Of a stretch of DNA of 36,302 bases, positions 1 to 32,175 are shown piece by piece. Location: NCBI RefSeq assembly GCF_017982655.1, contig NZ_JABXYX010000077.1:1-36302 (forward strand), in the 5' to 3' direction. Under the pieces are notes generated by a model. It was not told where the DNA came from, did no database searches, and saw only the letters and a list, made by a program, of their open reading frames with translations. The first letter of the stretch is position 1. Every line of letters starts with the position of its first letter. Source of the stretch: Brasilonema sp. CT11 (lineage in GTDB: Bacteria; Cyanobacteriota; Cyanobacteriia; Cyanobacteriales; Nostocaceae). The translations under genes and the position numbers were made by a program.

Positions 1-2
1 CT

Positions 3-242
3 TTGTCTAATCAAGATAATACCTCGATTTCAGATAATAATATTCACGATCTTGTTCGTTCTCCCTGGGCTGCAGGCTATCCGATCACCGGTGTTTATCT
101 GGATCAGGCAAGTGGAGGAATTACAGTCATAAGAAACAAAATCGATAATGTTCCTATGCCAATGTACACACACAGCACTCAAAATAATAACGTTATCGAG
201 GGTAATTCGCCTAACACCGTGACGACTAATAACGACTCGTAA
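3..242 (+). CDS. C-terminal end of a right-handed parallel beta-helix protein (partial)
   Basis: The reading frame is open to the left edge, so this is the tail of a longer gene; the TTG at position 3 is not a credible start. The roughly 79 visible residues are rich in Asn and Ile with the spacing typical of PbH1 beta-helix coils (ISDNNIHDL, ITVIRNKIDNV, NNNVIEGN). Such proteins are often secreted polysaccharide-acting or surface proteins. The adjacent glycosyltransferases fit a polysaccharide locus, but the substrate and catalytic function cannot be seen from this fragment. Confidence 0.6.
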   Translation: MSNQDNTSISDNNIHDLVRSPWAAGYPITGVYLDQASGGITVIRNKIDNVPMPMYTHSTQNNNVIEGNSPNTVTTNNDS

Positions 243-256
243 GAAACCCTGTGATA

Positions 257-1480
257 TCAACACCCAGTACTTGTCAGGACTTGTTCATAGCGTTTACCTG
301 CGCTTTCCCAAGTAAATTCCGTTTCTACTAATTGTCTGGCGTTACGAGATAATTCTGTTCGCAATTGCGAATTTTCAAATAATTGACTGATAACAGTAAC
401 GTATTCTGTAGGCTGATTTGCTCGTAATGCTCTGGGTGGTATATTTGAACCATCTACACTTAGTCCTTCTAAACCACGCTCACTTGCTACGACTGGCACA
501 CCTGCAGCCATCGCTTCTAAAGTTTTATTTTTAATACCAAATCCCGTTCGCATTGGCACAACACAGACTGTTGCTTTGTGCAAATATTCTACCATTGAAG
601 GAACACGCCCGGTTACAGTAATTCCGGGTTTTTCTTTGAGTGCTAAAACTTCTGGTGCAGGACGAGAACCAACAATATCAAAAGTGGTATCTGGGTAAAG
701 CTTTTGAATTTCGCTTAAGACTTCGTTGCTAAAAAAGCAAACAGCATCAATGTTTGCTAAATTATCCATTGCACCAATGAAAATGATGCGATGTCCGTTT
801 GGATCATGAGTGCGGTAGGGAAAAGAAACTAAATCTACGCCATTGGGAATAACTTGAATTTCGCTGTTCGGGTTAAATTCTTGCATCTGAATTCTATCTT
901 CTTCTGTTGTCACCACAATTGCTGAGAATTTAGAGCAGTAGCGTTGTTCATAACGACGCAAAAGTGGTAGATAGAGTTTGTCTCGAAATCTATTTTCCGA
1001 AATACCCGTTTTTAGCTGGTTGCAACAAGTACCGTAGACTGAACTATGAACATTAACTATAGTTCTAAGATGTTTTTGAAAGTGAGGTTGCACATAAATT
1101 TCATTAACGCTGTGTTCACAGGTAATAACATCACATTTCCCCGCCTCCACGAAGTTATCAACCCAAGTCTGCATCTCGCTTGAGTAACGGTTTAACACAC
1201 TTGGCGGTGTTCCTTGTTGTATAAAAGAATAAAAGCGCTGGATTTTTTTTAATATTCTTCCAGATTCACTCGTGTCTTGAGGGCGATTAAAAACAATTAA
1301 GTTATCAACACAATTCCGTAATTCTAGTACTTCTGTATCTGTCACATCAGGCTCTCGTTGAGTCACTAGGGTAATAGCATGATGTTGACTGAGATACTTG
1401 AGTAAATGAAATGTCCTTACCTGGGTTCCGCCTCGTGTAGGAGGATAGGGGAAGGTGGAAGATAGCATTAAGATGTTCAT
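257..1480 (-). CDS. Glycosyltransferase family 4 (GT-B fold)
   Basis: This 407-residue protein begins MNILMLSSTFPYPPTRGGTQ, the usual N-terminal strand and Gly-rich loop of GT-B enzymes. A C-terminal nucleotide-sugar domain has the E-x7-E type segment GFGIKNKTLEAMAAGVPVV, with GFG/E positions expected to contact the donor phosphate. The length is normal for the family. The N-terminal pattern (RTFHLLKYLSQHH) resembles glycosyltransferases of exosortase or exopolysaccharide loci, but that is only a resemblance. It most likely acts in the cytoplasm, adding a sugar to a lipid-linked glycan. It is convergent with the beta-helix gene (14 bp gap). The donor and acceptor cannot be deduced. Confidence 0.85.
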   Translation of the reverse strand: MNILMLSSTFPYPPTRGGTQVRTFHLLKYLSQHHAITLVTQREPDVTDTEVLELRNCVDNLIVFNRPQDTSESGRILKKIQRFYSFIQQGTPPSVLNRYSSEMQTWVDNFVEAGKCDVITCEHSVNEIYVQPHFQKHLRTIVNVHSSVYGTCCNQLKTGISENRFRDKLYLPLLRRYEQRYCSKFSAIVVTTEEDRIQMQEFNPNSEIQVIPNGVDLVSFPYRTHDPNGHRIIFIGAMDNLANIDAVCFFSNEVLSEIQKLYPDTTFDIVGSRPAPEVLALKEKPGITVTGRVPSMVEYLHKATVCVVPMRTGFGIKNKTLEAMAAGVPVVASERGLEGLSVDGSNIPPRALRANQPTEYVTVISQLFENSQLRTELSRNARQLVETEFTWESAGKRYEQVLTSTGC

Positions 1481-1493
1481 AAACCTAATTATA

Positions 1494-1528
1494 GGAAACA
1501 GGGAACAGGGAACAGGGAACAGGGAACA
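1494..1528. repeat. Heptamer short tandem repeat (GGGAACA)n
   Basis: Five consecutive 7-bp units are visible, the first degenerate (GGAAACA) and four exact GGGAACA. This is the short tandemly repeated repetitive (STRR) sequence class common between genes in filamentous cyanobacteria. It lies just upstream of the glycosyltransferase start codon. A related GGCAACA run occurs at 30280-30307. Confidence 0.85.
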
Positions 1529-1574
1529 AGAATCTACAAATGTAAGTAGCTCAACCTAATTAAACGTAAAATGT

Positions 1575-1636
1575 CATTACGTTAGCGCAGCGTGCCCGGA
1601 GGGCATACGTAACGTAGTGAAGCGAAGTAATCGCAA
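1575..1636. repeat. Extragenic palindromic repeat
   Basis: The core TGCCC-GGA-GGGCA (1593-1605) is flanked by imperfect outer arms TTACGTTA and TAACGTA, so the single strand can fold back. GC-rich extragenic palindromes of this type recur between genes in Nostocales genomes. The rest of the 1481-1806 gap is AT-rich with no coding potential, and presumably carries the promoter for the gene starting at 1807. A purine-rich AAAAAAAGGATATTTTAGG precedes that ATG. Confidence 0.5.
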
Positions 1637-1806
1637 AAACTCTATCTTATATTTTTCAAGGTTGACCTACTTACTTTTTTTTCATAATTTATTTAGGATG
1701 ATTATACATATGATATGACTTACCATTACATATGTTTAATTATCATTTTCAGAATTATAAATAGATTTTTTTATAAAATACGTAAATAAAAAAAGGATAT
1801 TTTAGG

Positions 1807-2838
1807 ATGGAAGATTTTGGGATTTACACACTAGCTAATGATATTGTTTATAATCAATTAGTGGCATTACTAAACAGTATTGAAGTGAATGTTAGCCCAA
1901 AGATTCCGATTTGTATTATTCCCTATGATCACAGACTAGACCGAGTGAAGCTAGAGGTAAGTTCTCGACCTAATGTCACCTTGTTTGAGAACAAAAGCTC
2001 AATGCAACGCTGGGAAGATTTTTATAATCAAGCTTGGAATGCCCATGCCCAAGCTAGCCAGCTAAAGCAAGGTCATTCTAGAAAATGGTACAAACAAAGT
2101 AATTTATTCAGGAAAATGTGTGCGTTTGATGGCAACTTTCAACGATTTGTGTTTTATGATGCCGATAGTTTGGCAATGAGTTCACTGGATAGGGTTTTAC
2201 AAAAGTTAGACCACTACGACTTTGTGTTTGATGATTGGGAACATGGCAAGTCAACTCCTGTTGCAGCACTCAAATTTGCTCGAATTGAAAAGGCAATCTG
2301 CTTGCCAGAATCTCAGGTTAGACCACTATTACATTGCTCTAGTTTCTTCGGTTCAAAACAGGGAATTTTTGGCAAGGATGAGCTAGAGATGCTAAGAGAG
2401 TGTTTGGTGGAAAACCAGGAGTTTAGCTGGATAAATGAACAGTCTTGGTGGTGTGATGCAGACTTATTTAGTTACATGACATTGCGATGCAAGCGCCCAC
2501 TCTTTAACTTTACCCTCAGCCCCAATGGGCTAGACATAACTGGCAATTGTGCCGACGCCGACCCTTTTATCAATATTAATAATGTTCTCTACAATCAAGA
2601 TGGATTAAAACCGATTCATCGCCTGCATTACATGAATTACCCTGCAATTGATTTTACTCGGTTGTGTCAAGGCGAAGACGTTGAAATTCGTTACAAAAAT
2701 GAATTTTTATACTATCGATTTCTGAAGGAAGCAGAAAAAAGACCTAAGCAACTTAAACCACCTAATATAGCAGTGAAAACCAATCGATTCGTACAAAAGG
2801 TTAAGAGTAGAATTCAAAGAACTATTTCTGAAGTTTAG
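1807..2838 (+). CDS. Npun_R2821/Npun_R2822-family glycosyltransferase-like protein
   Basis: The protein is 343 residues and begins MEDFGIYTLANDIVYNQLVA, which I recognise as the start of a cyanobacterial family named after two Nostoc punctiforme proteins. A GT-A style DxD is visible in VFYDADSLAM (about residues 117-126), followed by a second acidic segment (DFVFDDWEHG). This fits a metal-dependent nucleotide-sugar transferase fold, although no member's activity is known to me. The C-terminal 30 residues are basic. It lies 26 bp before a GT2 gene on the same strand, so the two are probably co-transcribed and work on the same glycan. Confidence 0.75.
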   Translation: MEDFGIYTLANDIVYNQLVALLNSIEVNVSPKIPICIIPYDHRLDRVKLEVSSRPNVTLFENKSSMQRWEDFYNQAWNAHAQASQLKQGHSRKWYKQSNLFRKMCAFDGNFQRFVFYDADSLAMSSLDRVLQKLDHYDFVFDDWEHGKSTPVAALKFARIEKAICLPESQVRPLLHCSSFFGSKQGIFGKDELEMLRECLVENQEFSWINEQSWWCDADLFSYMTLRCKRPLFNFTLSPNGLDITGNCADADPFININNVLYNQDGLKPIHRLHYMNYPAIDFTRLCQGEDVEIRYKNEFLYYRFLKEAEKRPKQLKPPNIAVKTNRFVQKVKSRIQRTISEV

Positions 2839-2864
2839 CTTTTGTCAACCTTACTATTACAAAA

Positions 2865-3812
2865 ATGCCTAAAGTCAGTGTTTGTATTCCGACTTTTAAT
2901 CGTGTTAATCTGCTGCCTTTCGCAATTGAAAGTGTACTCCAGCAGACTTATCAAGACTTTGAATTAATTGTTTGCGATGACGGTTCTCAGGATAGTACCC
3001 CTAAACTCATGTCGGAGTACACAGATAGCCGCATCAAATACATCCGTCATCAGCAAAATATTGGCAAAAGCAATAATATGCGCTCTGGCTTTGATGCTGC
3101 AACGGGTGAATATTTTATCAAGTTTGATGATGATGACAGGTTAACTTCAGATTTCCTATCACGTACCACAGCAATTCTAGATAAAAACCCCAATATTGAT
3201 TTTGTTGGAACTGACCACTGGGTGATTGATATTAACAATATCCGAGATGAAGCAAAAACACAAGAAAATTCTCGGCGTTGGGGTAGAGCGAATTTATCAA
3301 AAGGTGTTGTTGATAATTTACAGGAAGTTGTCTTTGTTAATCAAAGCTTTCAAATTGGCGCAACCTTATTTCGTCGTTCAGCCTTGCAAGAATTAGGATT
3401 TATGCAGCCTAATTGGCAAAATTGTGAGGATAATGATTTATTTGTACGGCTGGCTTTGGCAGGAAAGAAAGGTTATTATCTCCCAGAATTGTTGATGGAA
3501 TATCGCTTCCACGCACAACAACAAGGTATTGACAGGGCAATTCCTTATTTGACAGATAAGTTACGGTATTTGGAAAGTTATCAATTTGAATCGGAAAAGC
3601 TAGAGAAAATTAGGCTACAGCGTCTTGCAGAGACACAATTATTGTTAGGTTTACGGTTGATTTCAAAAGGTGAAACGCAAAAAGGAAGAGAGTTAGTTTT
3701 AGCAGGGAAGTCTTTTTCTCCTGCTAAGGCGTGGATTGGGTTGGGATTGTCGCTGTTACCTGTGGGGTTGCGTTCTTTGGTGTTTGATTTGGTGAGAAGG
3801 ATGAAAGGGTAG
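2865..3812 (+). CDS. Glycosyltransferase family 2 (GT-A fold)
   Basis: This 315-residue enzyme starts with the GT2 signature MPKVSVCIPTFNRVNLLPFA, followed by CDDGSQDST (UDP-binding Asp) and the DxD-type metal site FDDDDRL near residue 90. The segment NCEDNDLFVRLALAG supplies the later ED catalytic-base region. The length fits a single-domain inverting transferase with a short C-terminal helical tail and no obvious membrane segment. It closes a two-gene unit with the gene at 1807. The sugar and acceptor are unknown; the neighbours suggest an extracellular polysaccharide or glycoprotein glycan. Confidence 0.88.
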   Translation: MPKVSVCIPTFNRVNLLPFAIESVLQQTYQDFELIVCDDGSQDSTPKLMSEYTDSRIKYIRHQQNIGKSNNMRSGFDAATGEYFIKFDDDDRLTSDFLSRTTAILDKNPNIDFVGTDHWVIDINNIRDEAKTQENSRRWGRANLSKGVVDNLQEVVFVNQSFQIGATLFRRSALQELGFMQPNWQNCEDNDLFVRLALAGKKGYYLPELLMEYRFHAQQQGIDRAIPYLTDKLRYLESYQFESEKLEKIRLQRLAETQLLLGLRLISKGETQKGRELVLAGKSFSPAKAWIGLGLSLLPVGLRSLVFDLVRRMKG

Positions 3813-3832
3813 GGGAGATGCAATTATTACAT

Positions 3833-4612
3833 TTACTGACTTTGTGGAAATGTTGGAGCAGGTTGGTTAGTTAATTTTGGCATAAATTGACTGATAAGGA
3901 AAAGTGTAGCTAGAGTTAATGCAATTGACAAAGCTGCAATCACAATAGGATTATTTCTTCGCGTGCTTAGTTTACCTTGTGTATATGCTGTTTTGGCTAT
4001 ATCTATTTCACGCCTAGATTGTTCTAAAATTGATTGGAGAGCATTAATATCCTCATCTTCTAGTTCTCTGAATTGCTCTTGCCTAAAAACATTCTCTAAA
4101 ATTTTCACTTTCTCCTCTGGAGATGCTTGAGCAAGTTCTCTCTTGAGAATATCATAAGGATTAGTTTTCCTTACAGGTTGTGATGATGCGGTTTGAGGCA
4201 TTGAAGATTGTTGCCGTTGACTATTTTGTTTAAAATATTTTTCATGAAATCTCTGTAAGTTCTCGTGCTTGACAGGTTGTGATGATGGAGTTTGAGAAGT
4301 TGGTGATTGAATTGGACTATCTTGTTTAATCTCTTGTTTCGTAAAGCTATATAGGTTATTTTGTCTTGCAGGTTGTGATGACTTAGTATCAGAAGTTGGC
4401 GATTGAGTTGAAGGACGTTGAATATTGCTTACTTGATTTGTCTTCAATAACCATCTATAGTCACTGTCTTGATCCACCAAGTGCTTTAATGAAGAGTATA
4501 GGTAGTGGTTTATCTCTCTTCTTTCAACTCCAAGCTTATTAGCAATTTGTATTGCTCTTAGAGGAGTACCACGCTTTAAAATTTCAATAATTTTTGATTC
4601 TAAATTATCCAT
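3833..4612 (-). CDS. Tail-anchored protein with Z-alpha-like winged-helix domain
   Basis: I do not know a named function for this 259-residue protein. Residues 1-57 form a predicted winged helix. The recognition-helix segment RREINHYLY (31-39) lines up with KKEINRVLY of human ADAR1 Z-alpha, keeping Asn (N35) and Tyr (Y39) at the same four-residue spacing, and a Trp (W54) ends the wing. The two wing prolines of Z-alpha are missing (SDYRW) and the wing is about three residues shorter. A polar linker holds three copies of a roughly 33-residue unit beginning SSQP (78, 110, 143). A helical segment follows, then a hydrophobic helix at 221-244 with almost nothing after it, which is a tail-anchor layout. 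It lies 201 bp downstream of the ParB-like gene, same strand. Any generic wHTH is an alternative reading. Confidence 0.6.
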   Translation of the reverse strand: MDNLESKIIEILKRGTPLRAIQIANKLGVERREINHYLYSSLKHLVDQDSDYRWLLKTNQVSNIQRPSTQSPTSDTKSSQPARQNNLYSFTKQEIKQDSPIQSPTSQTPSSQPVKHENLQRFHEKYFKQNSQRQQSSMPQTASSQPVRKTNPYDILKRELAQASPEEKVKILENVFRQEQFRELEDEDINALQSILEQSRREIDIAKTAYTQGKLSTRRNNPIVIAALSIALTLATLFLISQFMPKLTNQPAPTFPQSQ

Positions 4613-4813
4613 ATTAGCCCCCGATATGCATATTTTATAATGATGCTGAGATCGCTATTCCATTCATAAGACTTGTTTTCCGGATATTTTGATAAAGAAT
4701 AGGGTAATACACTACGCATTAAGTGCTAGGAGTGCAGCTTTTCATAAGTAGATGCAAAGGCGCGAATAAGTTGATGAGGTGCGTTACTATGCGCTACCGC
4801 AGACAGTCTATTA

Positions 4814-5560
4814 CTAAAGAAATAAAAGTCGTGACCAACTGTCAATAATCTCAACCATTTTCTCGCTAGTTATACCTTTAACCTGTCTGTTCCCATTAGT
4901 GACTTTTACTCGTGCAACTACATCACTCAAAGAGGCAAACTTTTTCTTTTTGCGTTCTTTATCTACACTTTCAGCAACTTTAGCAGCTGCTTGAGTCGTA
5001 AAACCGGCACTTATTAATCTTGGAGTTAGTTCAGATAAAATGAGAGTATTAAATGCCTCTAATGGTTGAATCTGTTTAGGTATCTGACCCTCAAGATGCT
5101 TTAGTTTATCATCTAGTTTATGTCTTTCTTGTGCCAGTTCAGACCTTAACTCATTTATTTGCTTTTCAAGACGCAATTCAATATTTGCTATACGTGATAA
5201 TTCAGAATTCTTTATTGCCGGTGTGGTTTCTACTGATGATTTATCGCCAGAGTCTGACCTTTTGAGGATTACGGCTTGCTTTAATACTGCTTCTTCTTTA
5301 TCAGGTGAGATAATTAAGGCATTGACTGTTTCACCTTCGCTAGGATTTTTTTCTCTAGCTCTTACAGCTGCATAGTATTCAAAATGTCCATCAATTACCT
5401 CATATTTTTCAAATCCAATCTTTTTTAAAACTAATGGTTTAAGAATTCCTCCAGACTCTAATATCGTATTGGCAAGAATGTCTAAGTCAGACTCTATAAA
5501 ATTTGAACGAGGAACACTTGAAGTAACGCTTGCAACATCTACCATTAAAAATGTAGTCAT
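4814..5560 (-). CDS. ParB/Srx-fold protein, atypical ParB partner
   Basis: The 248-residue protein has an N-terminal ParB/sulfiredoxin-like domain (about 1-95): a 'where to go next' segment ILKPLVLKK, followed by YEVIDGHFEYYAAVRA. The usual ParB GERRxxA box is replaced by GHFEYYAAV, closer to ParB-like nucleases and Srx-type CTP/ATP folds than to chromosomal ParB. There is no obvious central HTH. Residues about 110-170 are charged and predicted coiled coil, and the C-terminus (SLSDVVARVKVTNGNRQV) looks like a short helical DNA- or protein-binding module. Its ATG overlaps the TAA of the upstream ParA fusion by one base (TAATG), implying coupled translation and a shared job in DNA segregation or a derived system. 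Confidence 0.7.
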   Translation of the reverse strand: MTTFLMVDVASVTSSVPRSNFIESDLDILANTILESGGILKPLVLKKIGFEKYEVIDGHFEYYAAVRAREKNPSEGETVNALIISPDKEEAVLKQAVILKRSDSGDKSSVETTPAIKNSELSRIANIELRLEKQINELRSELAQERHKLDDKLKHLEGQIPKQIQPLEAFNTLILSELTPRLISAGFTTQAAAKVAESVDKERKKKKFASLSDVVARVKVTNGNRQVKGITSEKMVEIIDSWSRLLFL

Positions 5561-6939
5561 TATTTCATCTCCATTTTGCTTAAAACTTCCACTGCTAAAA
5601 ATTCAAACTCACCAGCAGCCTGATTTGCTGAAGGTTCATTTTCAGCATAATCAAGGATTGATTTTGGGTTAGGTATTTCCATGTTTCCCATTGGTATAGT
5701 TTTGTTAATGCAGGCTGATAAAGCTGTTCGTTCAGAAATAACACTATCCAGAAGTGGTAGAGCGTAACGCCCCGGAATCGCACTTTTATGTTTGGAAAAT
5801 GTATGTTTAAGATACTGAGGATTAGTAGAAATTTTAGATGGAAGAACACCCAAAATAGTAATAGGTGATTTTCCTAAACCTTCTTTATTTTCATTAATTT
5901 GTTGTTGAATAAAGGTTTTCACACTCGACAATCCTTGATTTGAAAATGGTTTTAAATCTGAAGGGATTATTAGGTAATCAGCAGCTGTTAGTGCAGCTTC
6001 TGCATACACATCTAATGATGGAGGAGTGTCGATAATTACAACATCATAGTCATTTTTTACTTTTTCTAATTTTTTTGCTAGCCTAATTCGACTAGCTCCA
6101 AATCCAACAAGTTTAGACTGATTTGCAATTAAGGTAATATGTGAAGGAATAACATCAATTTCTGGTTTATTAAACAACTTAGATTGCCGTACAATATCTG
6201 GAATAAAATTAAAATCGCTCTTTTCTAATAAGTGATAGACATTACGGTCTTTTAAATCATCATCTTCTTCAAATTGAAATTTAACTAAACCTGTAGCAAA
6301 GGTTGTATTTGCTTGTGCATCTATATCAATCAATAGGACTCTTTTGCCTTTCTTCCTAAGTGCTGCTGCTAAGTTAATAGCAACGGTGGTTTTACCTACT
6401 CCACCTTTGTGATGGTAAATAGCAATAGTTTTCATTGAATGTTGCCTCTTATTTTCAAAACCGTTAATAAAAATATTTTGCGCTTCTAAAAAATCTTTCG
6501 TCTGTATTTTTGTAATATTATCTCTACCAATTAAAGCTTTGATTTCATTGAACCTTGTATTAACTTCCTTACCAGAGCAATGAAATACTAGCTGAATATC
6601 GTGTTGTAATTTTTGATATATTCTGATTTCTTTACCATTAGTGAGAAGTCCATAAGGCACATTCAAGTTTGTTAAATAATGTTTGAGTCGGTAAATATGA
6701 TTATTTAAATTTTGGTTAGGGTGCTTTGCCTCCATTACTACACTCACTGGTGAGTGAGTGTCTAACACAAAGGGGATAACTTGTGCATCAAATGCTAAAA
6801 AATCCAAACGGATGCTACCAACTGCAACTTCTTGATGCCAGGTATCGGGAGTATACCCTAACTGCGGTAGCAAATATTGAACGATTAGTTTGCTTTCAAC
6901 TTCGCTCTCATTGCGGCAAAGCTCAGGATTAAAAGTCAA
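5560..6939 (-). CDS. HsdR-N-type PD-(D/E)XK domain fused to ParA ATPase
   Basis: This is a 459-residue fusion. Residues about 10-120 match the type I restriction HsdR N-terminal nuclease fold: RLDFLAFD supplies Asp46 and VVMEAKHP supplies Glu70-x-Lys72, a plausible PD-(D/E)XK active site. Residues 169-459 are a ParA/MinD ATPase with deviant Walker A HHKGGVGKTT (178-185), Walker A' LLIDIDAQANTT and Walker B VVIIDTPPSLD. M169 could serve as an internal start for a stand-alone ParA, but no stop separates the domains. ParA dimers bind DNA and drive ParB-bound cargo. Fusion to a nuclease domain suggests DNA recognition or damage coupled to segregation, or a defence role. The upstream 222-bp gap is divergent with the gene at 7162. 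Confidence 0.82.
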   Translation of the reverse strand: MTFNPELCRNESEVESKLIVQYLLPQLGYTPDTWHQEVAVGSIRLDFLAFDAQVIPFVLDTHSPVSVVMEAKHPNQNLNNHIYRLKHYLTNLNVPYGLLTNGKEIRIYQKLQHDIQLVFHCSGKEVNTRFNEIKALIGRDNITKIQTKDFLEAQNIFINGFENKRQHSMKTIAIYHHKGGVGKTTVAINLAAALRKKGKRVLLIDIDAQANTTFATGLVKFQFEEDDDLKDRNVYHLLEKSDFNFIPDIVRQSKLFNKPEIDVIPSHITLIANQSKLVGFGASRIRLAKKLEKVKNDYDVVIIDTPPSLDVYAEAALTAADYLIIPSDLKPFSNQGLSSVKTFIQQQINENKEGLGKSPITILGVLPSKISTNPQYLKHTFSKHKSAIPGRYALPLLDSVISERTALSACINKTIPMGNMEIPNPKSILDYAENEPSANQAAGEFEFLAVEVLSKMEMK

Positions 6940-7161
6940 TTTATTTTTTCCTCTGAAAAATAGTTCTTACCAATAACTTTTTACTTGTTCGATTATGGCA
7001 TGGTTATCTTTATTTTGTCTAATCAAATACACTTTTTTTGTATAAACTATACAATATCAATGCTCAGTTACATATCTGTTATTAACTTTTCTCAACGGTA
7101 AAATTATATTAGGCAAAATATACTTGAATTCAGGATTGAAAAAATTTGTGTGGATTGAGTT

Positions 7162-8034
7162 GTGGGAATTGATCAAGTACTACTACCTTATCGAAAGGAA
7201 ATCTTAGAAATTAGTGCCAAATACGGAGCTTATAATGTCCGAGTTTTTGGTTCCGTCGCCAGGGGAGAAGCAAAACCAGAGAGTGATGTAGATTTTTTAT
7301 TGGAGGGACAGCTGATAGAAGCTGATTTATCTGATCCAAAAACATGTCACTTTTTGGTAGGGGGGACAACTGGGAGTGGGAAGAGTGAGTATTTGCGTTC
7401 GCGAAGCGGGCGCTCTGCGCCATCGCTCCTCCTCAGTCTTATCTTGCGTCATTCCCCTGCACATTTACAAATCGCTCTGGTTGATCCTAAACGAGTGACA
7501 TTTCCTGAGTTTGAGCGGATGCAGTGGTTGTATTCACCCGTTGTGAAGGAGAGCGATCGCGCTATTGAACTGATGCAAGAACTCGTCACAGAAATGGAAT
7601 CGCGCTATCAACGGTTTGAAAAAGCGAAATGCGCTGATTTAAGTACTTATAATCAACGTTCTCCTCAGCCTTTGCCTAGAATTGTCTGTATCTTTGATGA
7701 ATACGCTGACTTCATGGCGGAGAAAGAATCCCGCACAGCACTAGAACAAAGTATAAAACGACTTGGTGCAATGGCAAGAGCAGCCGGAATTCATTTGATT
7801 ATCGCCACTCAACGCCCAGAAGCTGGTATTGTCACCCCAATTATCCGCTCAAATTTACCAGGAAGGGTTGCACTGAGAACTGCTAGTGAAGCAGACTCAG
7901 CTATTATCTTGGGAGGTAAACAAACAACCGCTGCTCGGTTATTAGGAAAAGGCGATTTGCTTTATCAAATGGGCGCTCAATTGTACCGCTTACAAAGTTT
8001 ATTCGCGAGTGATATTCGGCTACCGTTAATATAG
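7162..8034 (+). pseudogene. Chimera: MNT nucleotidyltransferase head joined to FtsK/SpoIIIE motor tail
   Basis: Residues 1-48 are the start of an MNT-type nucleotidyltransferase (MntA-like antitoxin family) with the canonical GS-x10-DxD motif (G30-S31, D42, D44), cut off right after it. From about residue 50 the chain becomes the C-terminal motor of an FtsK/SpoIIIE protein: [20 protein letters not shown], Walker A 67-75, Walker [13 protein letters not shown], then ATQRP. No HEPN toxin partner follows. A GC-rich repeat at about 7399-7425 adds eight or nine residues just after Walker A. The start is GTG with no clear ribosome site. I infer a deletion that joined two unrelated genes. It remains open, so expression as a chimeric ATPase cannot be excluded. 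Confidence 0.6.
7399..7425. repeat. GC-rich repeat inserted in frame within FtsK-like coding sequence
   Basis: TCGCGAAGCGGGCGCTCTGC and the following CCATCG resemble the short GC-rich interspersed repeats of Nostocales. They encode SRSGRSAPS between SEYLR and LLLSLILRH, interrupting a helix that is otherwise continuous in FtsK motors. The length is a multiple of three, so the frame survives. Confidence 0.5.
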
Positions 8035-13048: not shown

Positions 13049-13987
13049 ATGGGATATGTCATTGCGACTGCAAATATGAAGGGCGGAGTTGGTAAAACCA
13101 CCCTCACTGTCAATATGGCTACTTGTTTAGTCAAAAATCATAACAAGCGGGTGCTTGTCCTTGACTTAGATAGCCAAATTAGTGCCACACTCAGTCTTAT
13201 GTCTCCCGTAGACTTTGCTAAACTTCGCAAAAACAGACGGACATTGAGATATCTGATAGATGACATTATCAACCCCTCGTCAAGGGCAAAATTGACAGTT
13301 CGAGATATTATTCAGCCTCAAGTTTGCAATCTCCCTGGACTAGATTTATTACCAGGAGATATCGACTTGTACGACGAATTTGTCGTCTCAGAAATGCTGC
13401 ATCAACAAGCAGTCAGTTTGGGTGAAAATGAATTTGAAACGATTTGGAATCGTTTTGAAAGAGTTTTGCTCGCAAAAATCTTAGAACCCATTCTGCAAGA
13501 ATACGATTTTATCGTCTTAGACTGCGCTCCTGGATATAATCTTTTGACTCGTAGTGCTTTAGCAACTAGTAATTACTATATACTTCCTGCTAAACCAGAA
13601 CCACTATCTGTGGTGGGTATTCAATTGCTGGAAAGACGCATCGCCCAGTTAAAAGAAAGTCACGAACATGAAGCACATATAGATATACAAATGCTGGGAA
13701 TCATCTTCACAATGTCTAACGCTAACTTTCTCAGCGGCAGATATTACAAACAAGTCATGCAGCGCGTTCATCAAGATTTTGGTGATGCAAAAATTTGTCA
13801 GACACAAATACCAGTTGATGTGAATGTTGCTAAGGCAGTTGACAGTTATATGCCGGTTGTTTTAAACAATTCCAGCACAGCAGGGTCAAAAGCATTCTAT
13901 CAATTAACTCAAGAGTTATTGCAAAAGCTAGAGTATGCCGAGCGTGAAAAGCAGCAAAAAACAAATTTAGAAGTCGCTACACCGTAG
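13049..13987 (+). CDS. ParA-family ATPase (orphan)
   Basis: The 312-residue ParA/MinD-type ATPase has deviant Walker A NMKGGVGKTTL (Lys11 to Thr18), Walker A' VLVLDLDSQISAT and Walker B FIVLDCAPGYN. No ParB-like gene adjoins it, and it lacks the N-terminal HTH of type Ia plasmid ParA. Orphan ParA proteins position cellular cargo (carboxysomes, chemosensory arrays, DNA) by dynamic nucleoid binding; which cargo applies here cannot be told. It is distinct in sequence from the nuclease-fused ParA at 5560. It is convergent with ileS, separated by a low-complexity GAGTGAGG-rich stretch (about 13993-14035). Confidence 0.88.
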   Translation: MGYVIATANMKGGVGKTTLTVNMATCLVKNHNKRVLVLDLDSQISATLSLMSPVDFAKLRKNRRTLRYLIDDIINPSSRAKLTVRDIIQPQVCNLPGLDLLPGDIDLYDEFVVSEMLHQQAVSLGENEFETIWNRFERVLLAKILEPILQEYDFIVLDCAPGYNLLTRSALATSNYYILPAKPEPLSVVGIQLLERRIAQLKESHEHEAHIDIQMLGIIFTMSNANFLSGRYYKQVMQRVHQDFGDAKICQTQIPVDVNVAKAVDSYMPVVLNNSSTAGSKAFYQLTQELLQKLEYAEREKQQKTNLEVATP

Positions 13988-21743: not shown

Positions 21744-24118
21744 CTCAGGAAAACTACATATCAAACGACAACCTTGATTCATTGCTCGGAGAGTATACTC
21801 ATCCCCAGGGATATCTAGAGTATGTCAGCAGCTTACCGTTTCTAGGTCGTTTGCACTGTTCAACTCGACAAATTGAGGCTGGAAGTTGGCAGGAAATTCT
21901 ACTTGATTACGAAGTCGGTGCTTCTGGTATTGCAGACGGTGCTTGGATAAAAGTAACGTTCAAATTTTACTCAGATTGGGGACTGTTTCAGACGGAAGAT
22001 CCCAAGGGGGCTAACTATCTTTCAGCAGAATATCAAGCCCGCCCTTGTCTTCCTGGTGAAAGTCCCGCAACGGTGCAGTCACTTAAAGTTCGGTTTGACC
22101 AGAAGGGACATGAACGTCCTTATCAAAAGGCGATTATTGTAGATATTGTCGATGGTTACATCAAACCAGGTGACCATATTTTGATTCGGTTGGGCGATCG
22201 CCGCGCTGGTGGACCAGGAACAAGAGTACAAACTTTTGTTGAGCAAGGTTTTCGCTTCCGTGCTTACATTGACCCGGTTGGCACCTCTCGCTTTGCCGAA
22301 ATTCCTGGTGATATTGTGATTGATATTGTGCCAGGATCTCCAGCTAAACTGGCAATTGTGACTGGGCGACTTGTGAAAACAGGTGTTTATTTCCCAGTAC
22401 GAATACGCACAGAAGATGTTTGGGGCAATACTTGTTGGGGATTGGGAGGACAACTGCGGTTAACAGATTGTAGAACACAACACGAGCAAATATTTAACAT
22501 ACCAGAGCAAGGTTGGGCGGTGGTAAAAACTAACTTGACTCTGGATGCTGATGAAGAAACAATACTACAAGCTACTTTAGTAGGAACTGAGTTACAAAGC
22601 GCTCCCACTCGAATCACAGCAGATAGTAACTTGGCTTATCCTCGTGCATTTTTTGCCGACCTTCATGTCCACTCCAACAACACAATAGGAACGAATAGTA
22701 CAGAGTATAATTTCGCCTACGGTAGAGATGTGGCGGGGTTGGATGTTTTGGGTTATACGGCGAATGATTTTAATATTACTGAGGAGCGCTGGAAGGAAGA
22801 TGTAAAGCTATGCCGGGAAGTTACCCAAGAAGACGAGTTTCTTTGTTATCCCGGTACAGAATGGTGTGGGAATTCAGCGGCGGGGGGCGATCGCAATATT
22901 GTTTTCTTAGGCGACGAAGTGCTATTTCCCTATGATCGCCAAGGAAAGCTGCTTCGCTCTTTTGAGTGGAATGAAGATATGAAAGCAAAGCAACTGCTTC
23001 CTGGCGCTTGGCCTGTAGATAAGCTTTACGCTGGATACATTCATAATCCAGAACAGCACCTGCTTATCCCCCACATAGGCGGACGACGTGCCATTTTAGA
23101 CTGGCATCACCCCAAACTGGAACGTTTGATAGAAATTGGTTCGTCTTGGGGACACTTCCCTTGGTTTTACCAAGACGCCATCAGTCGAGGATATAAGGTT
23201 GGGGTGTCAGCGAATGGCGATGAACATCGAGGGCGTTGTGGCGGTGGTGTTCCTGGGACAGCGGTTTTTGGAGTCAATGGTGGACTAACTGGGGTGATTT
23301 CTCCTTCGCTGACAAAGTTGGATATAAGTCAGGCGCTGCGTTCTCGTCATACCTGGGCGACAACAGGCGATCGCTTAGTTGCTTTGCTTTGGTCGGGATC
23401 ACACATTCAAGGAGATGAATTTACTGCATCCGATTCAGTTACCATTCACTATCGATTGCTAGGTACAACCGGCTGGGACGAAATTGCAGCACATACCCAT
23501 AATGGTTTACTGTGGCATCGCAACCTCCAACTTGAAGCAGGTTACGCTGCAAATAAAATTCGCCTGCGCTGGGGTGGTTCACGGATTAAAGACCGCTATC
23601 GTTGGGCTGCATGGCATGGAACCTTAAAATTTTCTCATACATTAGTTCACAACTATCAACCTTATGGTCTAGAACATCCAGAGGAATATGTTAGACGAGA
23701 TGGTGAACTCAAACTAGAGTTTTGCTCTGATACCTACGGAGATTCTGACTCTATTGAAATGGAACTATCTGATTTACTCCACGCTCACTTCCAACTGTAT
23801 GTTGAAATCGATAGTTACATTAAGGTGGGAAGTCCACTACAGCGCAATCCTTATATCCATTGCCCAGAATTCAGGTGGGAATTCTCTGGCAAAGACCTTT
23901 TTAACCAAGGAATTCTGCGGCAAGAATTGGGAGGAGCAGAACTTTTCATTGCAGTAGAACGCTTGAGTGCAACTCCTATGCCAACAGATGTTAGTGGCAG
24001 TTTTACTGTAGAACCTCAGTCGAGTCCTCACGGTTTTGTGCCAATCTATATTTCAGGTCGTCAGGTTGATGATTCCAAAGTTTGGACTAGCCCTCTGTTT
24101 ATCATGTTTGAGAACTGA
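21740..24118 (+). CDS. Large PHP-domain putative metallo-phosphoesterase (DUF3604-like)
   Basis: The 792-residue protein has about 300 residues of beta-rich N-terminal sequence, then a PHP-type metal site starting with ADLHVHSNN (H310, H312). CYPGTEWCGNSAAGGDRN (about 367-384), LIPHIGGRRAILDWHHP (about 440) and SANGDEHRG (about 492) supply further His/Asp/Glu ligands. PHP enzymes are usually multi-metal phosphoesterases; the pattern resembles DUF3604 proteins, whose substrates are mostly unknown. No signal peptide is visible, so it is probably cytoplasmic. Coupling to the PstS-like gene (4-bp overlap) suggests work on an organic phosphate or similar anion, which is inference. A hairpin terminator begins at its stop codon. 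Confidence 0.7.
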   Translation: MTQENYISNDNLDSLLGEYTHPQGYLEYVSSLPFLGRLHCSTRQIEAGSWQEILLDYEVGASGIADGAWIKVTFKFYSDWGLFQTEDPKGANYLSAEYQARPCLPGESPATVQSLKVRFDQKGHERPYQKAIIVDIVDGYIKPGDHILIRLGDRRAGGPGTRVQTFVEQGFRFRAYIDPVGTSRFAEIPGDIVIDIVPGSPAKLAIVTGRLVKTGVYFPVRIRTEDVWGNTCWGLGGQLRLTDCRTQHEQIFNIPEQGWAVVKTNLTLDADEETILQATLVGTELQSAPTRITADSNLAYPRAFFADLHVHSNNTIGTNSTEYNFAYGRDVAGLDVLGYTANDFNITEERWKEDVKLCREVTQEDEFLCYPGTEWCGNSAAGGDRNIVFLGDEVLFPYDRQGKLLRSFEWNEDMKAKQLLPGAWPVDKLYAGYIHNPEQHLLIPHIGGRRAILDWHHPKLERLIEIGSSWGHFPWFYQDAISRGYKVGVSANGDEHRGRCGGGVPGTAVFGVNGGLTGVISPSLTKLDISQALRSRHTWATTGDRLVALLWSGSHIQGDEFTASDSVTIHYRLLGTTGWDEIAAHTHNGLLWHRNLQLEAGYAANKIRLRWGGSRIKDRYRWAAWHGTLKFSHTLVHNYQPYGLEHPEEYVRRDGELKLEFCSDTYGDSDSIEMELSDLLHAHFQLYVEIDSYIKVGSPLQRNPYIHCPEFRWEFSGKDLFNQGILRQELGGAELFIAVERLSATPMPTDVSGSFTVEPQSSPHGFVPIYISGRQVDDSKVWTSPLFIMFEN

Positions 24119-24160
24119 ACTACCGACACTTTTGCAAGGCGTGAGTGACGGTAGTTTTTT
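24118..24160 (+). terminator. Rho-independent terminator after the PHP-domain gene
   Basis: AACTACCG (24118-24125) pairs with CGGTAGTT (24149-24156), and the right arm runs into TTTTTT ending at 24160. The intrinsic terminator begins at the stop codon and separates this unit from the convergent ycf66. Confidence 0.8.
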
Positions 24161-24175
24161 GGTTACATTTGCTAA

Positions 24176-24949
24176 TTAAGAGTTTTGACTTGGAGGATTT
24201 GGTGGTACTTGCTCAGGAGGTGTTTGTGCTGGAGGAGCAAGTTCAGCGTCGGGTGCTACTTCCTCAACAGAGGGTGTTTTTTCCTCAATTTTGGTCTGTG
24301 CTTGAGCCGCTTCCACTAATTCCGGCGATGGGGGATTTGGTGGGACTGCTTGCGGGATCACCTCTACAACTGGAGGTGCTGGTGCTTCTGCTGTTGGAGT
24401 TTTTGCTTTGGTATCAGTGGTAGCAGGTGGGGTAACTGGTGGTTGCTTTGTGACTGGAGTGCGTCCATCGACAACTTCAACCTTTGGTTTGGCTGTGGGT
24501 GCAGGAGTTTGTGCCGTTTTAGACTTTTCAGGTGTCTTTTTATCCACAGTTTGAACTCGGTTTTTCAGCCCGGAAAAACTACCAACAATACTTTTTGGCA
24601 ATTGAACAAGTTTTTGTGGAAGCGACAACCCAGAGACTTGCTGTTGAATGTTTGTTTTTACTGTTTCAGTGCTGGGTATCTGAGTTTGTTGTATCTTTGG
24701 TGTGAGTTGACGACGTAACGACAGCGTTTGCCAGCCAAACCAACCCAAAAGAGCCACACTAGCCACATGACCCAGCAAAAGACCCCCAGTAATGCGTTGG
24801 GCAAATATCCATAAGACTAAGGCGTAGAACAGTCCTACACCACTCAAAATAAAATCATTCTTACGGTGGATTTCAGGAAAAAAGAAAGCTGCTATGTAAA
24901 GTGCTACACTTCCAAGACCGACAGTCAACGCTAGGATATATGCCAGCAT
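24176..24949 (-). CDS. ycf66: Ycf66 family protein
   Basis: The 257-residue protein has three N-terminal membrane helices (about 2-22, 33-52 and 57-73). It starts MLAYILALTVGLGSVALYIA, then FFFPEIHRKNDF, which I recognise as the Ycf66 family of cyanobacteria and some plastids. The following 180 residues are low-complexity, rich in Pro, Thr, Ala, Lys and Glu, and probably disordered. The biochemical role of Ycf66 is unknown. It is the only gene in the window tying it so directly to the cyanobacterial/plastid lineage. Confidence 0.88.
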   Translation of the reverse strand: MLAYILALTVGLGSVALYIAAFFFPEIHRKNDFILSGVGLFYALVLWIFAQRITGGLLLGHVASVALLGWFGWQTLSLRRQLTPKIQQTQIPSTETVKTNIQQQVSGLSLPQKLVQLPKSIVGSFSGLKNRVQTVDKKTPEKSKTAQTPAPTAKPKVEVVDGRTPVTKQPPVTPPATTDTKAKTPTAEAPAPPVVEVIPQAVPPNPPSPELVEAAQAQTKIEEKTPSVEEVAPDAELAPPAQTPPEQVPPNPPSQNS

Positions 24950-25175
24950 TTTGTGGTTACTCCTTACTGTGTCATTTCACTAGGGATTTGGGATTGAAGA
25001 TGAGAAATTGGGAGTAGAAGTACTCACTCAAAAGTATCTAGTCCCCCCATCGTTATAACTAAATAACTAAATATCTCAATTTTGCAAATTTTGCCAGAAA
25101 GTTGTTGAATCAGATACAAATTAAAATTTTTTATCTGTGTAGGTTCAATATTTCGGGTATGTTTAAGAAGTCTTA

Positions 25176-25259
25176 ATGTCTTCTTTAGGAGATAAGCAGA
25201 AATCTCGGATTACCCTTGAAGATAAAGAGAATCTGCAAGAGTTAGCCAGAATTTTATGA
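25176..25259 (+). CDS. Possible 27-residue upstream ORF coupled to gnd
   Basis: ATG at 25176 opens MSSLGDKQKSRITLEDKENL, then QELARIL, and stops at TGA 25257-25259, overlapping the gnd ATG as ATGA. The peptide is highly charged and protein-like. Such an overlap is typical of translational coupling, so the frame may be a regulatory leader or a small protein. The rest of the 24950-25255 gap shows nothing else I can name. Confidence 0.35.
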   Translation: MSSLGDKQKSRITLEDKENLQELARIL

Positions 25260-26752
25260 CACAGCAAAGCTTTGGTGTGATTGGTTTAGCTGTTATGGGT
25301 GAAAACATCGCTCTAAACGTTGAGCGTAACGGCTTTCCAATCGCAGTTTACAACCGCTCGCGAGACAAAACTGATAAATTCATGGCTGAGCGTGCCCAAG
25401 GAAGAAACGTTAAAGCTGCTTTTACTTTAGAAGAGTTTGTGGCTTCTTTGGAACGTCCCAGAAAAATTTTAATCATGGTGCAAGCAGGTAAACCTGTAGA
25501 TGCAGTGATTGCTCAGCTCAAACCCTTGCTGGACGAAGGCGACATTATTATCGATGGTGGCAACTCTTGGTTTGAAGATACGGTTCGCCGCACCCAAGAA
25601 CTAGAACCCGCTGGGTTTCGGTTCATTGGTATGGGCGTCAGCGGTGGTGAAGAAGGAGCACTCAATGGTCCTTCATTGATGCCAGGAGGTACGCAAAGCT
25701 CTTACCAGTATCTGGAGCCAATTTTTAACAAAATTGCCGCTCAAGTCGATGATGGTCCTTGCGTGACGTATATTGGTCCTGGTGGTGCAGGTCACTACGT
25801 CAAAATGGTACACAACGGCATTGAGTACGGCGATATGCAGCTGATTGCAGAAGCCTACGATTTACTGAAAAATGCTGCTGGACTTGACCATAATCAACTC
25901 CATGAAGTTTTTGCCGAATGGAACACCACGGACGAACTCAATTCGTTTTTGATTGAAATTACGGCAAATATTTTCCCCTACATTGACCCAGAAACAAATT
26001 TACCTCTGGTAGATTTGATTGTTGACGCCGCAGGTCAAAAAGGGACTGGACGTTGGACGGTACAGACTGCGTTGGAATTAGGAGTTTCTATTCCGACAAT
26101 CATAGCAGCGGTGAATGCCCGCATTATCTCTTCTTTTAAAGAAGAGCGCGTAGCAGCATCCAAGATCCTGACAGGTCCAACTGGCAAGTATGAGGGAAAT
26201 ACCCAAGAGTTTATCAACAAAGTGCGGGATGCCCTCTATTGCTCGAAAATCTGTTCTTACGCTCAAGGAATGGCTTTGTTAGCTACCGCGTCGCATACGT
26301 ATGTTTTTGGATTGGATCTGGGTGAAATGGCGCGGATTTGGAAGGGTGGCTGTATTATTCGTGCTGGATTTTTGAACAAGATTAAGAAGGCCTTTAGTGA
26401 AAATCCAGCGCTGCCTAACCTCCTATTAGCTCCTGAATTCAAGCAGACGATTCTCGATAGACAAGATGCTTGGCGTGACGTGTTGGTAACAGCAGCAAAA
26501 CTGGGAATTCCAGTGCCAGCATTTAGTGCATCTTTGGATTACTTCGATAGCTATCGTCGCGATCGGTTGCCTCAAAACCTCACACAAGCTCAACGCGACT
26601 ACTTCGGGGCGCATACCTACCTGCGTCTGGATAAGCCTGGTGCCTTCCACACTGAATGGACGCCAATTTCTGAGCAGTCCGTGTCAACTTCAACACCAAG
26701 ACAATTGGAAGCTGACCTACCAACTACACCTCCAGCGTCTTCAAAAGGCTAG
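25256..26752 (+). CDS. gnd: 6-phosphogluconate dehydrogenase (decarboxylating)
   Basis: The 498-residue enzyme of the oxidative pentose phosphate pathway converts 6-phosphogluconate and NADP+ to ribulose 5-phosphate, CO2 and NADPH. The Rossmann start is FGVIGLAVMGENIALNVERN. The substrate region shows IGMGVSGGEEGALNGPSLMP and YVKMVHNGIEYGDMQ, with the catalytic Lys and Glu expected there; DAAGQKGTGRWTVQTALELG is in the C-terminal domain. About 20 extra Ser/Thr/Pro-rich residues follow the usual C-terminus. In heterocyst formers this pathway supplies reductant for nitrogen fixation. It is followed by a strong terminator. Confidence 0.97.
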   Translation: MTQQSFGVIGLAVMGENIALNVERNGFPIAVYNRSRDKTDKFMAERAQGRNVKAAFTLEEFVASLERPRKILIMVQAGKPVDAVIAQLKPLLDEGDIIIDGGNSWFEDTVRRTQELEPAGFRFIGMGVSGGEEGALNGPSLMPGGTQSSYQYLEPIFNKIAAQVDDGPCVTYIGPGGAGHYVKMVHNGIEYGDMQLIAEAYDLLKNAAGLDHNQLHEVFAEWNTTDELNSFLIEITANIFPYIDPETNLPLVDLIVDAAGQKGTGRWTVQTALELGVSIPTIIAAVNARIISSFKEERVAASKILTGPTGKYEGNTQEFINKVRDALYCSKICSYAQGMALLATASHTYVFGLDLGEMARIWKGGCIIRAGFLNKIKKAFSENPALPNLLLAPEFKQTILDRQDAWRDVLVTAAKLGIPVPAFSASLDYFDSYRRDRLPQNLTQAQRDYFGAHTYLRLDKPGAFHTEWTPISEQSVSTSTPRQLEADLPTTPPASSKG

Positions 26753-26777
26753 AGATTTTTAGTTGAAAATTTTGCGG

Positions 26778-26808
26778 GTGACTCTGAAAAACTCAGAGTC
26801 ACTTTTTT
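26778..26808 (+). terminator. Rho-independent terminator of gnd
   Basis: GTGACTCTGA (26778-26787), loop AAAAC, TCAGAGTCAC (26793-26802), then six T. The 10-bp stem is perfect and lies 25 bp after the gnd stop. Confidence 0.92.
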
Positions 26809-26960
26809 CAATTGCATAAGGCGCAGATAATTTTTGTAGGGGCGGCGTTTTCCTGCCCTTTAGAATCCCAAAGCCCCTGTTGTCGCAAATGGCGTCTAAC
26901 AAAGCTATAATCTGTTTAACTTCACCAGTTCTGACAACTGAGTTGGTGAGTTCTTTGTTG

Positions 26961-28463: not shown

Positions 28464-28653
28464 ATTAATCTCCTTTTTATCAAGTTGTCATCAACTGAAC
28501 TTGCATTTTTTTACCTTCAGTAAAACTCGTCAATCCTGTTTACTTGATTTGTAATACAGAAATTTAGCTTAGAGAGCTTTTCTTCCATAATTCTTATTGA
28601 ATTATGCTGAAAGTGACAAAGGAGGATTAAAAATCTGTACTACCTAGATTGTT

Positions 28654-30117: not shown

Positions 30118-30430
30118 ATCCGAGGGTGGTTTTTTTGCTGATATCTACAATAGTGCTTATAATCCGTTAATGGAAAAATCAGCACAATTTATTGCCCGAT
30201 CCCTGGAGTGGACGACACCAATCTCAAATAATCATTGTATAGGAATCCGGTTTGATTTTTGAATTGACTCGTAGAGGTAGGCAACAGGCAACAGGCAATA
30301 GGCAACAGGGAAGAAGCAATAAAGGTGTACGGAGTTTTTTTCAAAAATTAAATAGGAGTCCTATATTACCACTTTATTAATACGTAAGTCCTAAATACTA
30401 TATAACATTCCATAATTGACAATATATCAA
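30118..30430. other. Intergenic region containing a GGCAACA heptamer repeat
   Basis: Positions 30280-30307 hold four 7-bp units (GGCAACA, GGCAACA, GGCAATA, GGCAACA), an STRR-type repeat related to the GGGAACA run at 1494-1528. Otherwise the stretch is AT-rich and contains the promoter region of the permease; no gene is seen. Confidence 0.7.
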
Positions 30431-32022: not shown

Positions 32023-32089
32023 CGGAAAAATCGCCCCATGAAAAGTCGTGATTTTTGTATACCAGTTGACAATTGGGGCGATTTTTCCG
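32023..32089. repeat. Inverted-repeat element with 16-bp perfect arms
   Basis: CGGAAAAATCGCCCCA (32023-32038) is the exact complement of TGGGGCGATTTTTCCG (32074-32089), with 35 bp between. No coding content. It may be a small palindromic mobile element or encode a structured RNA. Confidence 0.7.
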
Positions 32090-32175
32090 CATCAACCGAG
32101 GCTTAGAACCCGTTAGTTGTAATGAGGCACCGCAGTTTTTCCGGGTTTGGTGAAACGGATGTATTCTGAGTTCTG

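Follow-up and report, generated by a model that had tools for sequence, protein, structure and literature searches.

In the ParABS systems the gene of a deviant-Walker ParA is followed by that of a protein with the ParB_N fold, the two forming a single operon. We describe here a two-gene unit with the same arrangement, found in a 36,302-nucleotide (nt) stretch of DNA from Brasilonema sp. CT11 (contig NZ_JABXYX010000077.1; the whole stretch is called 'the window' below). It differs in that the ParA carries a fused, predicted nuclease domain and in that the ParB-like protein is without the GERRxR arginines, a recognised helix-turn-helix (HTH) and the N-terminal ParA-binding tail. The C-terminus of this partner is helix-hairpin-helix (HhH)-like, of the Rho_N/SAP type or of a third form. 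A nuclease domain of the same Pfam family, with the residues D...E-x-K, is present in HsdR of type I restriction (PF13588/PF04313); there it joins a helicase, whereas here it joins ParA. When the genes around the pair were read by eye, neither HsdM nor HsdS was recognised; they were not sought with profiles. We propose, as a tentative reading to which we give slightly less than an even chance, that the two genes form a DNA-targeting nuclease system in which a nuclease carried by ParA is steered against invading DNA by a partner that reads DNA.

The excerpts of a survey of ParB-CTPase folds (PMC12704722) describe orphans and phage fusions, the ParB fold being joined to other domains or occurring alone (about 100 amino acids (aa)) in phages. 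According to these excerpts only a DUF3850 fusion consistently adjoins parA, and LG(R/K)GL is the N-terminal ParA-binding motif; the nuclease-ParA, Rho_N and HhH partners of the present pair are not among the examples mentioned in them. The HerA/FtsK anti-invader capture systems (PMC12839542, in excerpt) differ from the pair, which has no motor of that kind, but resemble an operon displaced by it (see below), which likewise combines an FtsK motor with an AAA ATPase and a nuclease domain; PglZ, DUF4007 and DUF6079, named in the excerpts of that source, are not in the Pfam and PADLOC results for the three genes of the displaced operon. In searches of the open-licence PubMed Central (PMC) literature (bioRxiv was outside this scope), no description of such a pairing of nuclease-ParA and ParB-like protein was found.

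In the Pfam search the fusion matched HSDR_N_2 with 31.1 bits over residues 17-110 (cut-off 25) and AAA_31 (ParA) with 187 bits, with no helicase above the cut-off. Conservation was assessed in 61 members, obtained from the 79 of 91 fusions with at least 440 aa by dereplication at 90% identity. D46, E70 and K72 are each kept in 59 of the 61 and E15 in 56; the two exceptions (L087 and L092; our L and G numbers denote loci and genomes) deviate at D46, E70 and K72 alike. W34, P74, G97 and N101 are invariant in the N-domain, where numerous further columns exceed 95%. The Walker A motif KGGVGKTT does not vary in these 61 members or in a 37-member set, and the DxD..QAN stretch of ParA is invariant or nearly so. 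A first-pass annotation, made from the letters of the window, had pointed to Asp46, Glu70, Lys72 and the Walker A motif, had suggested a profile check of the N-terminus against HsdR-N models and had named lack of conservation of the nuclease residues as an objection; the residues prove to be conserved across the family and the profile match is above the cut-off. The domain is predicted, from its conserved catalytic residues, to be a nuclease of the PD-(D/E)XK/HSDR_N type. In 16 near pairs the ratio of nonsynonymous to synonymous substitution (dN/dS) of the ParA protein is 0.04-0.28, and over the first 120 codons it is 0.04-0.30 in the 15 near pairs having the nuclease domain. The AlphaFold model of the fusion (mean predicted local distance difference test (pLDDT) 79.5) is poor at residues 42-63, 149-166 and 211-217, and the nuclease assignment is therefore based on sequence. 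The best Foldseek match of the ParA domain is the ParA 8ray_A (E 9.2e-16). PADLOC matches of the fusion were obtained only via ParA and weak Cas4-like stretches (PDC-M28B 2.6e-10; Cas4b 0.0015).

The ParB-like protein of the window matched ParB_N with 35.1 bits (Pfam cut-off 26.3). Its AlphaFold model (mean pLDDT 89.9) includes a ParB/Srx-like N-domain, a coiled coil and a small helical C-domain, and the Foldseek matches of the N-domain are ParB-CDP (6sdk), Noc and sulfiredoxin. Alignment with Noc puts GERRWR opposite the GHFEYY stretch of the partner, and the arginines are missing: R occurs at positions 60, 61 and 63 in 4, 0 and 0, respectively, of the 74 partners (of 86) that were counted. 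The replacement of GERRxxA by GHFEYYAA, first reported for the window, is not a local oddity but a trait of the family. The initial impression that the protein has no clear HTH agrees with Pfam, in which no HTH family matched the window protein at E<=1 and none was among the 25 families shown, out of 182, for 46 partners. The LG(R/K)GL motif is absent by eye from the window protein and the consensus, both of which start directly with the first fold strand; this reading covers these two, and L078 and L092, which have longer N-termini, lie outside it. At E<=1 the ParB-like protein had no PADLOC match.

At a permissive E<=0.5, Pfam detected ParB_N in 46/46 partners, HHH_6 in 20, DUF655 in 18, Rho_N in 10 and SAP in 9. 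The C-domain of the window partner matches DUF655/HHH_6 weakly and below threshold; in relatives the C-terminus is instead Rho_N (up to 47 bits)/SAP or a third form without a Pfam match. In six of the 22 pairs compared, the likeness of this domain is lower than that of the N-domain by 30 points or more. For example, L015 and L016 are 96% identical in the fusion, 95% in the N-domain and 40% in the C-domain; the corresponding values are 90%, 90% and 33% for L043/L085 and 94%, 92% and 52% for L066/L081 (the other C-divergent pairs are L024/L025, L069/L070 and L083/window). As judged from such profiles and alignments, the C-terminus of the partner changes among types of predicted nucleic-acid-binding domain, sometimes between close relatives. 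The dN/dS of the partner is 0.13-0.74 (15 near pairs).

The family ParA was found in 57/386 cyanobacterial genomes (E<=1e-40). A nuclease domain was matched in 48 of these and in none of the remaining nine (G011, G111, G118, G121, G123, G151, G213, G247 and G360). The ParB-like profile matched 60/386 genomes, 54 of them within the 57; G080, G118 and G360 have the ParA without a partner match, and six genomes (G056, G101, G119, G129, G326 and G340) have weak partner matches and no fusion. A further 75 loci came from the genome_contigs collection, about L101-L114 of these being ParA-level matches only; the holders include Desulfobacter, Desulfobacteraceae, Electrothrix, Thiotrichaceae, Riflebacteria, Bacteroidales, Synergistaceae and a Chloroflexaceae metagenome-assembled genome (MAG). 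In 90 loci (L011-L100), drawn from two collections and with some genomes represented twice (for example, L013/L045 and L021/L051), the ParB-like gene adjoins the fusion in 85. Three of the five unpaired loci (L055, L087 and L098) end at contig edges, and L099 and L100 are partial fusions. In these loci, and in the regions around the exo-FtsK operon, type 2 and the two module-less genomes described below, genes were taken as the longest non-overlapping open reading frames, and flanking names such as ileS or glycosyltransferase were mostly given by eye. This recurrence across genomes and collections rules out a sporadic artefact of a single genome and bears out the supposed unit of fusion and ParB-like gene. 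No place covering 80% of the fusion was found in the best 5000 plasmid records or in 168 matched phage records, and at least 15 copies are on contigs of 3 to 9 Mb; ordinary plasmid partition is ruled out by the plasmid result together with these Mb-size contigs. Thus neither of two situations that the first-pass annotation had feared, fusions without the ParB-like gene and fusions on plasmids as ordinary partition loci, was encountered as the rule.

In the phylum of Desulfobacter, one of 198 genomes was detected at E<=1e-80, namely the Desulfobacter search centre itself. In a ParA tree (100 undereplicated rows; root not fixed), eight members of Thermodesulfobacteriota, Pseudomonadota, Riflebacteria, Bacteroidota and Synergistota nest among the cyanobacterial members. 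They group with a cyanobacterial MAG (L080; 89/95, not starred), the eight alone having 83/49, and the Chloroflexaceae MAG (L082) is placed apart. Since five other phyla fall within the cyanobacterial tree, with modest support, horizontal spread of the family is likely from these sequences. Nuclease-less members (L091, L094-L096, L093 and a tandem copy in L163) are scattered among nuclease-bearing ones in the same tree; loss of the nuclease is therefore likely, subject to the unfixed root. In L163/L045 an additional ParA of this same family, in tandem beside the fusion, has no nuclease domain and is 66% identical to the window ParA.

A second family (type 2, that of the window being type 1) was first met in G121 as an HSDR_N-ParA with a ParB-like gene carrying Rho_N (37.5 bits). 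The type 2 query matched 43/373 genomes which, by place, comprise 16 with type 2 and 27 with type 1 genes; as the search covered 373 of the 386 genomes, it may have missed type 2 copies in the others. The partner is adjacent to the type 2 fusion in 14 of the 15 regions fetched (the exception is L218), and D...E-x-K was seen by eye in 13/13 type 2 proteins listed. By eye, the partner C-ends are Rho_N-like (L216, L219-L221, L229 and L230), HhH-like (L222-L225) or of a third form (L227 and L228). Types 1 and 2 cluster against the resident ParA, described below, and outgroup ParAs (94/92, not starred). Four of the 16 type 2 genomes (G011, G121, G151 and G247) also have a type 1 ParA, with HSDR_N missing in all four. 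In G121 the type 1 ParA is fused to part of a superfamily 1 (SF1) helicase, with MkoA of Mokosh as best PADLOC match (1e-33), and adjoins a second HSDR_N-ParA pair. The part joined to the type 1 ParA in this cluster (L184, 5079-12665) is an SF1-helicase C-half; the cluster also contains a helicase N-half that starts like an endonuclease, a type 2 pair whose frame is broken, and open reading frames (ORFs) of the DUF2779/Cas4-like kind.

The type 1 pair often lies, opposite in orientation, inside or beside an operon common in Nostocales. This consists, on one strand, of gene4, an AAA ATPase, an exonuclease-FtsK protein (exo-FtsK; DNA_pol_A_exo1 97 bits and FtsK 134 bits in Pfam) and a ParA of 294 aa; for gene4 the most that was obtained is a winged-helix match below threshold. 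A ParA of the 294-aa type is beside exo-FtsK in 15/22 regions. This resident ParA was found in 11 of 17 type 1 regions (L161-L177), on the same strand as the pair in L175. The type 2 pair adjoins this resident ParA in L221; in L229 and L230 the ParA that it adjoins belongs to the clade of the resident one. The state of the operon varies. The pair is located ahead of gene4 with all genes intact in L058, and between exo-FtsK and ParA with the operon complete in L159. An N-terminal remnant of exo-FtsK is beside the pair in L168 and L169, and only a C-terminal remnant is left in the window, L062, L173 and L174; exo-FtsK is lost with AAA retained in L161, L170 and L171, and all three operon genes are lost in L162, L172 and L177. 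The remnant ORF of the window is 81% identical to residues 687-926 of a 931-aa exo-FtsK protein (Pfam: FtsK_SpoIIIE 119 bits, NTP_transf_2 31 bits). When G199 and G284, of one genus, are compared, the pair substitutes for ~2.1 kb of exo-FtsK and both flanks align.

Two further observations concern this operon. The remnant ORF of the window is chimeric, ~47 nucleotidyltransferase-like residues continuing in frame into the FtsK C-terminal part. No description of the gene4-AAA_16 ATPase-exonuclease-FtsK-ParA294 operon (L141-L158; for example, L152 8229-14810) was found in the literature searched. A hit of exo-FtsK to SspH at about 1e-66 was considered as proof of a defence role for exo-FtsK; this is weakened by a control, in which another FtsK-like protein, from G091, matched SspH too (2e-39).

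Among the 43 genomes of the window's family, one (G300) has the pair and a full exo-FtsK, 18 have the pair only, 20 exo-FtsK only and four neither. Hence exo-FtsK is present in 1/19 genomes with the pair vs 20/24 without it (Fisher p=2.3e-7, kinship ignored), presence meaning an ORF of about 690 aa or more, for which G305 is borderline and G051 and G233 are without AAA and gene4 neighbours. In G300 the fusion is split into two ORFs, with the break at Walker A. Two of the four genomes with neither (G074 and G191) have type 2. The other two have no module: in G385 (L244) decayed pieces of exo-FtsK, AAA and gene4 are beside the resident ParA, and in G078 (L243) nothing was recognised at the place, where the neighbours are unrelated. 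The pair and exo-FtsK states alternate within genera g2, g5, g7 and g14. Exclusion is incomplete: both are carried by L058, L059 and L084 (in which the fusion is cut at a contig end), and G121 holds pieces of all three modules. Relics of exo-FtsK occur at six of 35 pair loci (the window, L062, L168, L169, L173 and L174), and at 22 exo-FtsK loci there are no pair relics but for two short, off-site matches to the partner C-terminus (L160 and L179). Reciprocal loss of two coexisting modules is rejected because relics run one way only, those of exo-FtsK at pair loci; displacement by the pair is therefore favoured. On this reading the pair has repeatedly displaced the exo-FtsK/AAA operon, apparently one-way.

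Parts of the ParB-like protein are also carried by mobile elements. The best PDB match of the family profile (A1) is not a ParB but chain B of 9k3a, the 1717-aa tail protein of phage A-4L (E 1.3e-8). Its residues 1338-1406 give 39 bits with the family N-domain model and no match with Pfam ParB_N. Polyvalent injected phage proteins with ParB domains, as described in excerpts of PMC5512222, are comparable in that the A-4L tail protein also has a ParB-like domain; this domain was compared with the host family and with general ParB models only. The lone N-domain (101 aa) encoded by a viral contig (L115) shares 71.6% identity with the host L024 protein over its whole length; by eye, the same contig has portal-, head- and amidase-like genes. 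Decayed N-domain pieces are present on plasmid pOSC7112.03 and in L135, where two are in tandem near an integrase-like gene. A tblastn search of the phage collection returned A-4L only (two records) and one weak match. The pair itself was sought in viral contigs, with zero relatives in 40 pattern-matched stretches. In A-4L ORF27 (L116 1975-7125), the C-terminal 170 residues hit a PHROG that bears the name ParB-like partition nuclease, and a YHGT...GTYFS stretch is ADP-ribosyltransferase-like by eye, with no Pfam match. No paper on the A-4L tail protein was found in the literature searched.

The first-pass annotation had tentatively included a third gene, for a Z-alpha-like, membrane-anchored protein, in the system. 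The Z-alpha match scores 19.2 bits, under the Pfam cut-off of 21, and this reading is rejected as stated; all that remains, as read by eye, is that the N-terminus resembles a winged helix and that the C-terminal region has a hydrophobic segment. The gene is present in 9/90 loci plus the window and in 3/243 genomes of the order, always beside the pair (G167, which has it in L018, is outside those three and was either unsampled or missed). These counts, with homologues of the fusion lacking the gene in most genomes, rule it out as a core part: it is a rare accessory. Detection of foreign or damaged DNA at the membrane, which had been suggested from this gene, is therefore unsupported. Residues 9-67 of the third protein match positions 622-680 of the 687 in the PADLOC ZorC model (3.7e-7).

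It is true that the patch has no HIP1 sites, as had been reported. The whole window has 14, so that ~1.2 would be expected per 3.1 kb, and contains longer HIP1-free stretches (1-7552 and 23375-33128); because of this the gap is uninformative as a sign of horizontal gain and is rejected as proof of transfer.

The table lists the features of the window. The three ORFs are placed as first annotated: base 5560 is common to the fusion and ParB-like ORFs (TAATG) and the third ORF follows 201 bp on. The source genome is 8.79 Mb in 411 contigs, and the 20 other matches of the fusion in it are ParA-type stretches only.

Features of the nuclease-ParA locus in the window, with positions and strand
Feature	Position	Strand	Remarks
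Nuclease-ParA fusion gene	5560-6939	-	ORF, 459 aa, TTG start
Predicted HSDR_N-type PD-(D/E)XK domain, residues 1-125	6565-6939	-	E15, D46, E70, K72 conserved
Codons of D46; E70; K72	6802-6804; 6730-6732; 6724-6726	-	
ParA ATPase domain, residues 169-459	5563-6435	-	KGGVGKTT, DIDAQAN, IIDTPP
ParB-like gene	4814-5560	-	ORF, 248 aa; ParB_N match
ParB/Srx-fold N-terminal domain, residues 1-104	5249-5560	-	GHFEYY replaces GERRxR
Variable C-terminal domain of partner, residues 166-245	4826-5065	-	helix-hairpin-helix-like in window
Third gene, accessory	3833-4612	-	ORF, 259 aa
Exonuclease-FtsK remnant, C-terminal FtsK part	7162-8034	+	FtsK_SpoIIIE + NTP_transf_2
Resident ParA	13049-13987	+	294 aa in most relatives; last gene of displaced operon, outside pair; 48-region synteny, separate ParA-tree clade

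The first proposal of a candidate new system holds for the two-gene unit, which is recurrent, has conserved nuclease and ATPase residues and fits no PADLOC system, and fails for the third gene. In the DNA-targeting nuclease system that we envisage, ATP-loaded ParA dimers would coat DNA without sequence preference, keeping the nuclease idle. The C-terminal domain of the ParB-like protein would bind a particular form of DNA (ends, junctions, single strands or incoming/unpackaged DNA) and its N-domain would dock on ParA, leading to ATP turnover and local cleavage. The likeliest target would be invading DNA, which is favoured because the reading end is fast-changing while effector and motor are constrained, and because mobile elements carry the docking part. 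Also in favour of the system are the regular pairing of fusion and partner, the conserved catalytic and Walker residues, the recurrence of the three C-terminal forms in type 2, the MkoA-like helicase part joined to ParA in G121, and the exclusion and displacement of an operon that has a nuclease and a translocase of its own. Stripped docking domains on such elements could occupy the ParA-nuclease as decoys, and the displaced exo-FtsK/AAA operon would serve the same job by other means. A precedent for a defence reading is provided by the allelic restriction loci of enteric bacteria, where one of several systems occupies a single site. It is conceivable, and we put this forward with more reserve than the two-gene system itself, that the two families constitute an anti-invader class in which ParA is a DNA-bound, ATP-gated carrier of the nuclease, an exchangeable ParB-like adaptor sets the cut site and phages and plasmids carry decoys, one of them in a possibly injected tail protein.

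A number of observations weigh against such a role. Neither gene of the pair fits any PADLOC system, and the nuclease-less lineage retains both ParA and partner. The neighbours in the eight non-cyanobacterial loci appear by eye to be housekeeping-like, with no defence island. C-domain swapping is not general, being absent from 16 of the 22 pairs, and in L028/L030 the situation is reversed, the N-domain being the less alike part (50 against 61). What mobile elements contribute is thin, consisting of a single intact lone domain, a single phage protein and decayed pieces from two elements; when viral contigs were scanned with A1, with the lone domain, with that of A-4L and with one host N-domain, only L115 (again as L118) and A-4L were found. 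In addition, as far as the searches reached, 41 of the 43 genomes in the window's family have at least one of the three modules and 40 exactly one, which is closer to what a conserved cell function would show than to the patchiness of a defence system. This near-full occupancy and the housekeeping-like surroundings in other phyla keep viable the main rival explanation: a housekeeping form of DNA processing, in which trapped, broken or tangled chromosomal DNA is cleared or resolved either by the exo-FtsK/AAA operon or by the nuclease-ParA pair. Their mutual exclusion and interchange at one locus by the resident ParA are consistent with it, as is the fact that FtsK and ParA are chromosome-handling families. 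We nevertheless consider it rather unlikely, since a core function would not usually show a partner that changes fast and swaps domains, partner domains borne by phage, a sporadic distribution in distant phyla and an occurrence in just 57/386 cyanobacterial genomes, and since G078 and G385 have no module.

The intact ParA motifs, the ParB fold and the coiled coil would equally suit a ParA/ParB-like positioning or partition system whose nuclease-like domain merely binds DNA or is structural, and the nine of 57 genomes without an N-domain match show that variants lacking it exist. This is improbable given the retention of the E/D/ExK residues in 56-59 of 61 members, with purifying selection, a partner without the CTP-box arginines or a recognised HTH, and the absence of any place covering 80% of the fusion in the best 5000 plasmid records. 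The opposite orientation of the pair at the exo-FtsK operon and the truncation of exo-FtsK in several genomes could also suggest a selfish element, its nuclease aiding insertion into and breakage of the resident operon as in homing endonucleases. We judge this very improbable: copies occur elsewhere too (L163-L167, L176 and the non-cyanobacterial loci), the breakpoints vary, and L058 and L059 keep both pair and operon intact.

The familiar task of ParA and ParB is to move DNA and cellular cargo; in this pair the motor bears a predicted restriction-type nuclease domain and its partner has interchangeable, putatively DNA-binding ends. The exclusion pattern makes the function testable under either reading. 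If the pair cuts invading DNA, a partition motor would have been turned into an immune nuclease, and the idea of phage decoys could be clearly tested. Should it process the chromosome instead, this would explain why the relatives of Nostoc hardly ever do without one or other of several unrelated nuclease modules.

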